This document shows positions 4,451-6,846 of a DNA stretch of 64,000 nt, piece after piece. The notes beneath the pieces are model-generated. The model had not been told where the DNA came from. It ran no database searches and saw only the letters and a list, made by a program, of their open reading frames with translations. Origin of the DNA: Mucilaginibacter aquariorum (GTDB lineage Bacteria; Bacteroidota; Bacteroidia; Sphingobacteriales; Sphingobacteriaceae); contig NZ_JANHOH010000001.1 in NCBI RefSeq assembly GCF_024498135.1, positions 2,046,001 through 2,110,000 on the forward strand. The letters are read 5' to 3'. The translations under genes and the position numbers were made by a program. Each line of letters opens with the position of its first letter. The stretch's first letter is position 1.

Positions 4451-6016
4451 TTATTTAGCAAACGCTACCGAACGGGTTTCCCTGATAACGGTAACTTTTA
4501 TCTGACCCGGATAGGTCATTTCTGTTTGTATACGGTTTGATATATCTGCCGCCAGTATTTCTGATTGCGCATCTGATATCTTTTCGCTTTCTACAACAAC
4601 ACGCAATTCGCGGCCTGCCTGTATAGCGAATGTTTTTTCGACACCAGGATACGATAAAGCAAGCTCCTCAAGCTCTTTTAATCGCTTGATGTAACTTTCT
4701 ACCACCTCGCGGCGTGCACCCGGCCTTGCGCCCGATATAGCGTCACACACCTGTATAATCGGCGATAGCATTGATGTCATTTCCACTTCATCGTGGTGGG
4801 CACCTATGGCATTACATACTTCGGGGTGTTCCTTATATTTTTCGGCAAGCTGCATACCCAAAATAGCGTGTGGCAGTTCGGGGTTATCATCAGGCACTTT
4901 ACCAATATCGTGCAGTAAGCCTGCGCGTTTAGCCAGTTTTACGTTTAAGCCTAACTCTGCTGCCATGGTAGCACAGAAGTTGGCTACCTCGCGCGAGTGT
5001 TGCAACAGGTTTTGCCCGTACGATGAACGGTAACGCATACGGCCCACCATCCTTATCAGTTCGGGGTGCAAACCAGTGATACCTAAATCAATTACGGTAC
5101 GCTCACCTATCTCAACAATTTCTTCTTCTATTTGCTTTTTGGTTTTGGCGACAACCTCCTCGATACGTGCCGGGTGTATGCGTCCGTCCGTTACCAAGCG
5201 GTGCATAGCCAAACGGGCGATCTCTCTACGAACAGGGTCGAAACCTGAAAGGATAATTGCCTCAGGGGTATCATCAACAATAATTTCGATACCGGTTGCT
5301 GCTTCCAGCGCACGGATGTTACGCCCTTCGCGACCAATGATACGGCCTTTTATCTCATCATTCTCGATGTTAAAGATAGATACCGTATTCTCGATAGCGC
5401 TCTCGGTAGCGGTACGTTGTATGGTTTGGATAACTATTTTCTTAGCCTCTTTGGTAGCAGTTAGCTTGGCTTCGTCAATAATATCTTTTATTTGCGCCAT
5501 TGCCTTGCTGCGTGCTTCTTCGCGTAAGTTATCTACCAGTTGGTTTTTGGCATCTTCGGCGCTTAGGCCTGCAATGGTTTCTAACTGCGCAACGTGCTGG
5601 TTCTTTAAATGCTCAACCTCTTCCTGTTTCTTAACAAGAATATCGGTTTGGGTTTCCAGTTTTTTACGCGCGTTATCCAGTTCAGCTTCCTTACGGTTCA
5701 TGTTCTCCAGCTTCTGGTTAAAAGATTGCTCTTTTTGTTTGATGCCGTTCTCGCGCTGGTTTAATACGTTGTTTTTAGCATTTACTTCCTGCTCATGCTC
5801 GGCTTTCATCTGCAAAAACTTCTCTTTTGCTTCCAGCTGCCTGTTCTTTTTTAATATTTCGGCGTTGTTCTCTGCATCCTTTAATATCTTCTTTACTTTA
5901 TTTTGTGCCGATACTTCCTGATCTTTAAAGAGCTTACGTAGCAGGAAACGCCCTATGACTATTCCCGTCGGGACGCCCATAAGCACCCCGATAATAATGT
6001 ATAATATACTGTTCAT
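4451..6016 (-). CDS. rny: ribonuclease Y
   Basis: Membrane-anchored endoribonuclease that initiates mRNA turnover. The 521-residue product has the canonical layout: an N-terminal membrane segment (about 3-25), a long charged coiled coil (about 30-200), a KH RNA-binding domain (about 210-270, with [15 protein letters not shown]) and an HD phosphohydrolase domain whose metal-binding pair sits in GLLHDIGK. Length and order match the family. The ATG is only about 20 bases downstream of the T-run that ends a 6S-like RNA on the same strand, so expression may partly depend on read-through from that RNA. A strong terminator follows. Confidence 0.97.
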
Positions 6017-6036
6017 TGGTTATTTAGGTTATATAA

Positions 6037-6207
6037 TAAAAAAACCGCAACTAAACTTCTAAGTGTCATGTATTGTTAAAACTTCTTGCCGGATGGAGTG
6101 GATCACGGGTTACCGTTAAATCACGATCAACGCATGCCTCTTTGTAATCCGAAGATATTGAAGCGTTAAGTTTTTAATAGTGAAACTTAAAATTTAACTG
6201 CGGTTAA
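6037..6207 (-). ncRNA. ssrS: 6S-like RNA (6S-Flavo type)
   Basis: About 170 nt between zapA and rny. On the minus strand the 5' arm (6205-6180, starting AACCGCAGTTAAATTTTAAG) pairs with the 3' arm (6066-6043, ending AGTTTAGTTGCGGTT) over about 20 bp with several G-U pairs, and a run of seven T follows (6044-6038). Inside, TTAAAAACTT pairs with AAGTTTTAA, and GATCGTG pairs with CGTGATC at the apex, leaving internal bubbles. A long terminal helix, an open central bubble and a position next to zapA fit 6S RNA, which binds RNA polymerase holoenzyme as a promoter mimic in stationary phase. Family assignment is by architecture and location, not by a covariance search. Confidence 0.7.
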
Positions 6208-6240
6208 ATCTTAAAATGCTCTGTTATATGTATAAGAACG

Positions 6241-6534
6241 TTATTGTTTCGAAAAAAAATCTGACAGTAAATGATCTAACTGATAAACCTTTTCGGCTAC
6301 TTCGGTATCATCCGTAGTAACTTTCTTATCCGCCTTTAATGACGATGTTGCATAATGCAGCACACACATCGAAAGCAAATCTTGTTTATCCCTAACCGCG
6401 TAATTTTCCTGGTATTCTTTTATACGGTCATTGATCAGCTTAGCTGCCCTTCTTATTATTTCCTCTTCTTCCATGTTTACCTTCAACGGGTAAACTCTGT
6501 CAGCAATATTTATTTTTATTGAGATTTCTCCCAT
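6241..6534 (-). CDS. zapA: cell division protein ZapA
   Basis: A 97-residue FtsZ-associated protein that bundles protofilaments at the division ring. The globular N-terminal part begins MGEISIKINIADRVYPLKV, which is typical of Bacteroidota ZapA, and a helical dimerisation region follows (about 35-95). The ATG giving MGEISIK is preferred; a GTG four codons upstream is the alternative. It lies 21 bp after the coiled-coil gene and upstream of the 6S-like RNA, the zapA-ssrS order also seen in proteobacteria. Confidence 0.9.
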   Translation of the reverse strand: MGEISIKINIADRVYPLKVNMEEEEIIRRAAKLINDRIKEYQENYAVRDKQDLLSMCVLHYATSSLKADKKVTTDDTEVAEKVYQLDHLLSDFFSKQ

Positions 6535-6555
6535 TGAGCTGTTCACTTTTTCGCA

Positions 6556-6846
6556 TTACTTTTTAAGCAATACAATGCACTTATCTATTTCTTGCACAAA
6601 GTCGTTAATTTTTTGCTTAATGTCAACACTTTTTTCATTTGTTTCTGAAAACGACTTTGCAAGCTTCAATACACGAAGCTTTTCTTCCAGGTCTTTTGTC
6701 TTGTTTGTACTGGCATTTAGGGCCACATTTAATGCCTCACTTTCCAGCTTCAGCAAATCATTTTCTTCCTGCAACGCAGCACAAAGCTCAATTAACCGCT
6801 CTGTTTTTTCTACAACTTTATTTAATTGTTCTGCTACTGAGGCCAT
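6556..6846 (-). CDS. coiled-coil protein upstream of zapA (ZapB-like)
   Basis: A 96-residue, almost entirely helical protein with heptad-like leucine spacing (for example LCAALQEENDLLKLESEAL). No membrane segment or catalytic motif is present. Size, coiled-coil nature and co-transcription with zapA suggest a division-ring partner comparable to ZapB, but coiled-coil similarity alone is weak evidence. It is followed by zapA after a small gap. Upstream, 6847-6949 contains AT-rich short repeats (variants of TTAGTGATT and AATCAATAATT). Confidence 0.6.
   Translation of the reverse strand: MASVAEQLNKVVEKTERLIELCAALQEENDLLKLESEALNVALNASTNKTKDLEEKLRVLKLAKSFSETNEKSVDIKQKINDFVQEIDKCIVLLKK

Follow-up and report, generated by a model that had tools for sequence, protein, structure and literature searches.

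A probable 6S RNA between zapA and rny in Mucilaginibacter aquariorum, with a boxA-like element ahead of it

The zapA-rny spacer and its structured unit

The window analysed here is a stretch of 64,000 nucleotides from the genome of Mucilaginibacter aquariorum, and all features described below lie on its minus strand. Genes at the locus are ordered as pheT, an open reading frame (ORF) of 96 amino acids, zapA, a structured unit and rny. The upstream neighbour of the unit, zapA (6241..6546), is recognized by Pfam PF05164 (3.9e-19), and the downstream one, rny (4451..6016), codes for RNase Y (NCBIfam TIGR03319, 7e-198). The 96-amino-acid ORF (6556..6846) has no Pfam match; it occupies the position of zapB in the proteobacterial array zapB-zapA-ssrS (PMC7641849). 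Weak relatives of this ORF adjoin other 6S loci.

The unit, assigned below to 6S RNA, covers approximately 6037..6209; two covariance models, R2 and R3, match it at 6037-6209 and 6039-6207, respectively. An initial annotation, made from the letters alone, had placed a minus-strand unit with a T-run between zapA and rny. Both statements proved right: the unit measures about 171-173 nt, the two flanking genes share its strand and the transcript ends with UUUUUUU (6038..6044), which is terminator-like together with the closing stem. Only about 20 nt (6017-6037) separate the U-run from the start of rny, so that rny requires either read-through or a promoter within the 6S gene. Expression of rny may depend on the efficiency of the 6S terminator.

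The predicted folding energy of the unit is -41.7 kcal/mol versus a mean of -28.5 for shuffled sequences (z -3.45), and it beats all 200 of 200 dinucleotide shuffles. The outer closing helix, present in the predicted fold and backed by covariation, is composed of AACCGCAGTTAA (6194..6205) and TTAGTTGCGGTT (6043..6054). It belongs to the long terminal helix with several G-U pairs that had been anticipated, and such pairs are found at RNA positions 12-160, 13-159, 18-154 and 21-151. The conserved core AAACTTAACG (6164..6173), shared by 6S-Flavo loci as AAACTCAACR, is located at the junction of the inner helix and the central bubble; genus consensus, covariation and predicted fold all give GAAGTTTT (6078..6085) as the 3' partner in the core helix. 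The 5' strand of the bubble, AACGCTTCAATATC (6154..6167), is positioned from the predicted fold and shows little or no variation among 15 family members; it is the putative template of product RNA. The open centre of the initial annotation is thus present as a bubble, but an asymmetric one in this species, with a 5' side of about 14 nt (AACGCUUCAAUAUC) facing a few nt on the 3' side. The proposed apical hairpin GATCGTG/CGTGATC had to be abandoned: it can be written with two G-U pairs, and its base-pair probability in the predicted ensemble is 0.00. The apical arm pairs otherwise in this ensemble, and the genus consensus favours a GUUA/UAAC hairpin. With its 173 nt, covarying closing stem and lopsided bubble, the unit has the layout of 6S RNAs, that is 160-200 nt with closing stem, bubble and apical arm.

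Most congeners carry the unit at the equivalent position; by our own count from the score table, 119 of 149 genomes of the genus exceed 120 bits with R2. In an alignment of 15 family sequences, 95.7% of cells are paired, and eight pairs are changed on both sides (14 such cells). All 500 shuffles stay below these values, and sliding the structure by 1-3 columns lowers the paired fraction to 36-54%. We regard this covariation as supportive rather than decisive, because the alignment that was tested also supplied the structure and the shuffles take no account of relatedness. The core AAAC[TC][TC]AAC[AG] (AAACUYAAC) is present in 47 of 55 Bacteroidia spacers of at least 190 nt, many of them from close relatives, versus 0.3 expected from dinucleotide shuffles, and it is absent from the short Bacteroidia zapA-rny spacers that were searched.

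Rfam families and intermediate models

At gathering thresholds, tRNA is the only Rfam family that reaches its threshold in the whole window, and a permissive search (E<=1) around the site gave no match. Neither RF01685 (6S-Flavo) nor RF00013 (canonical 6S) scores anywhere in the genome. The check originally suggested, a search with the RF01685 model, therefore fails at the unit and genome-wide, which the evidence attributes to divergence of the RNA. Whether an Rfam 6S model matches is a matter of practical detection and does not decide biological membership; the case for homology was built on intermediate models and on position.

Sequences of this genus alone were used to build model R1. Outside the genus it picks out the corresponding spacer, with E-values as low as 3e-20 in other genera and 1.6e-6 in other families, and it also matches an RF01685 locus, L031 (E=3e-4). 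Model R3 was built from ten zapA-rny spacers of other families, with no member of this family included. It matches the unit with 31.4 bits and E=2.1e-7, the next match in the window having 0.0097; all E-values of R1-R3 are rough owing to short calibration. R3 gives 69-77 bits to 6S-Flavo loci and 22-39 bits to RF00013 loci, and both zapA and rny adjoin the match in 28 of the best 30 R3 loci in the class. A genome-wide R3 search, whose prefilter scores limited first-look candidates, did not report the site; we count this miss as a limit of that search. R1 and R2 also produce weaker matches on the opposite strand, as the hairpin is long and partly self-complementary, and E-values of weak matches consequently need caution. 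Searches with RF01685, RF00013 and R2 revealed no other 6S candidate in this genome.

Known 6S families occupy the same spacer elsewhere in the phylum. RF01685 has 21 matches in 295 Bacteroidia genomes, two of them over the cut-off; the zapA-rny spacer holds 18 of the 21, including both over-cut-off ones (for example L031). RF00013 has 42 sub-cut-off matches among 296 genomes of the phylum. All 30 loci fetched from other classes place the match in the zapA-rny spacer, on the same strand and with pheT beyond zapA; the matches used for this synteny are all below the Rfam cut-off, and ZapA was verified by Pfam in three of the loci. Every one of these loci (L128-L157) thus shows the array pheT - zapA - 6S - rny, whose recurrence in other classes makes an origin in the ancestor of the phylum probable.

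Identity of the RNA

6S RNA restrains polymerase in slow growth. It resembles an open promoter and binds the housekeeping holoenzyme, and synthesis of a product RNA releases it. In Bacteroides, 6S RNA and its product RNAs have been detected experimentally (PMC7366714). We consider it very likely that the minus-strand unit is the 6S RNA of this genome, as the initial annotation had read it; the R3 match and the known 6S families in the same spacer (18/21 and 30/30) support that reading, and size, layout and the zapA neighbour parallel the E. coli zapA-ssrS arrangement as had been claimed. Homology to 6S RNA is very probable, argued indirectly from intermediate models, shared spacer, compensatory changes and the core motif. 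The unit has drifted beyond recognition by Rfam, yet belongs to an ordinary RNA class. Counting against the assignment are the silence of Rfam, the lopsided bubble, the genome-wide miss of R3, the core replacement in about 21 of 149 congeners and the sub-cut-off status of the RF00013 synteny.

The window RNA shares with 6S-Flavo RNA (RF01685; Weinberg et al. 2010, PMC2864571) the zapA-rny spacer and strand, the closing stem, the AAACUYAACR core and the U-run, and it is tied to that family through R1 and R3. It differs in being missed by the RF01685 model, in its core (AAACUUAAC versus AAACUCAAC in 6S-Flavo), in its stem letters and in the lopsided bubble. Like canonical 6S RNA (RF00013, E. coli ssrS), it lies beside zapA on the same strand, the E. 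coli order being zapA-41 nt-ssrS. The two are of similar length (173 versus 183 nt) and share the succession of closing stem, bubble and apical arm, and the RF00013 matches from other classes of the phylum occupy the same zapA-rny spacer. Unlike ssrS, the window RNA has no RF00013 score in this genome and is followed by rny instead of fau/ygfA.

Two other explanations were weighed. The unit could merely terminate the zapA operon and/or act as a 5' leader attenuating rny, with an incidental resemblance to 6S RNA. Such a role would agree with a U-run that stops some 20 nt short of the rny start, and with some Mucilaginibacter and Pedobacter that retain closing stem and U-run despite loss of the core or shortening of the hairpin to about 84 nt. 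A terminator, however, has no need of the AAACUYAAC core common to several families, and this explanation leaves unaccounted for both the known 6S families in the same spacer and the match of the independent model R3; we regard it as very improbable. Equally slight is the chance that the unit is a 6S descendant which in this lineage no longer regulates polymerase and has been turned to a different role, as its position below Rfam detection and the reduced or replaced versions in relatives might suggest. Against such a loss, core and bubble letters hardly vary within the family, a sign that the polymerase-contacting part is still under selection, and the searches of the genome yielded no other 6S candidate.

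With this assignment, 6S RNA extends to Mucilaginibacter, Pedobacter and relatives, in which Rfam detects none, although an earlier prediction in Sphingobacteria is possible. The order zapA - 6S - rny is thereby seen repeatedly within the phylum, in parallel to the proteobacterial zapA - ssrS.

The boxA-like element and a proposed mechanism

Directly after the zapA stop, at 6227..6241, lies the boxA-like element ACGTTCTTATACATA. This element in such a place, associated with 6S-bearing spacers, is new here. Its usual form in relatives, ACGTTCTTTACATA, is seen at the equivalent place in most of the loci L001-L019, L031-L051 and L232-L311. Among Bacteroidia spacers, 43 of 48 that bear the core have the element versus 3 of 47 others (uncorrected for relatedness), and its strict form occurs 31 times within 40 nt of the start of long spacers versus 0.22 expected. 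In 80 Sphingobacteriaceae-type loci, it accompanies 57 of the 60 cores. Elsewhere in the genome, the motif has no more near-matches than a reversed control.

E. coli rRNA boxA reads TGCTCTTTAACA, and the element of one relative (L037), CGCTCTTTACATA, comes close to it. The 16S-23S spacer of the M. aquariorum genome itself contains AAGTTCTTTGACATATTGG, with the similar stretch GTTCTTTGACATA; the corresponding letters are GTTCTTTACATA in the usual zapA-rny form and GTTCTTATACATA in the window, and boxA-like letters, ACGTTCTT, stand ahead of the 6S RNA. As with rRNA boxA, GTTCTTTRCATA-like letters precede an untranslated structured RNA and similar letters recur in the genome's own 16S-23S spacer; the window element differs in lying between a protein gene and 6S RNA. 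In E. coli, boxA binds NusB-S10 in rRNA antitermination (PMC10931766). Our literature search found no paper linking boxA, NusB and 6S RNA and no earlier account of a boxA-like 6S leader.

The idea that boxA accompanies every 6S gene was rejected, since nearly all of 20 tested R3 matches away from zapA are without the element; the exceptions are L226 with GTTCTTTGAACATA and L230 with the weaker GTTCTTTTTATA. Most loci of other classes are likewise without it, L137 being an exception. Its general absence from 6S copies distant from zapA is consistent with a role in read-through from zapA.

The following course of events is proposed. Transcription of the unit would most likely come by read-through from the pheT - 96-amino-acid ORF - zapA operon. 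The element just 3' of zapA may load NusB-S10, which would keep polymerase moving through the untranslated stretch until the long closing stem and U-run end the transcript before rny. The folded RNA would then mimic an open promoter by means of its closing stem (about 42 nt on the 5' side), the central bubble AACGCUUCAAUAUC and the apical arm, and would bind housekeeping RNA polymerase holoenzyme as growth slows. Release would follow once polymerase, using the bubble as template and moving toward the closing stem and 5' end, has made a short product RNA. As about 42 nt precede the bubble, the template region is expected at nt 43-48, and the predicted product RNA would begin near there (GUUAAGUUU...) or a few nt earlier.

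We infer that the element of 6S-bearing spacers acts as boxA and that read-through is protected by Nus antitermination. To the broader proposal, that in many Bacteroidia 6S RNA is made like rRNA, with NusB-S10, recruited by a boxA right behind zapA, carrying polymerase from the zapA operon through 6S, we would give about an even chance. A possible but rather less probable alternative is that ACGTTCTTTACATA forms part of a 6S promoter. The distance of about 25-45 nt between element and RNA would suit a promoter, while the relocated 6S copies, mostly devoid of the element, are expected under either explanation. The resemblance of the element to the 16S-23S stretch GTTCTTTGACATA of this genome and the closeness of the L037 form CGCTCTTTACATA to E. 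coli boxA TGCTCTTTAACA speak for boxA instead, and a sigma-70-type scan, which does not cover Bacteroidota promoters, detected no minus-strand promoter at the site. If 6S RNA is indeed driven by boxA, the supply of a polymerase-inhibiting RNA would be tied to the Nus factors that serve rRNA synthesis. The element opens a direct and cheap way to ask whether Nus antitermination acts on 6S RNA.

Replaced, eroded and relocated versions in relatives

About 21 of 149 congeners (about 14%) have the 6S interior replaced (47-75 bits with R2), with the closing stem, UUUCAC and the U-run kept; the boxA-like element is kept in most of those examined. Those core-replaced genomes that were tested yielded no convincing second 6S RNA. 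Replacement of the core while the stem and the boxA-like element stay would not be expected of an RNA whose essential part is the bubble, and these species offer a natural test of which 6S parts are indispensable. The new interior at these loci (L020-L023, L165-L181, L250, L256, L269 and L273) often begins with CACTGGCAAGC.

In several Pedobacter and relatives (L298, L301-L304, L308 and L310), the spacer holds a shortened hairpin only, of about 84-145 nt, with the core unrecognizable; these hairpins look like 6S RNAs worn down to a terminator. Several genomes with a short zapA-rny spacer have R3 matches elsewhere, away from zapA and rny (L212-L231), and 6S RNA thus seems to have been relocated in those families.
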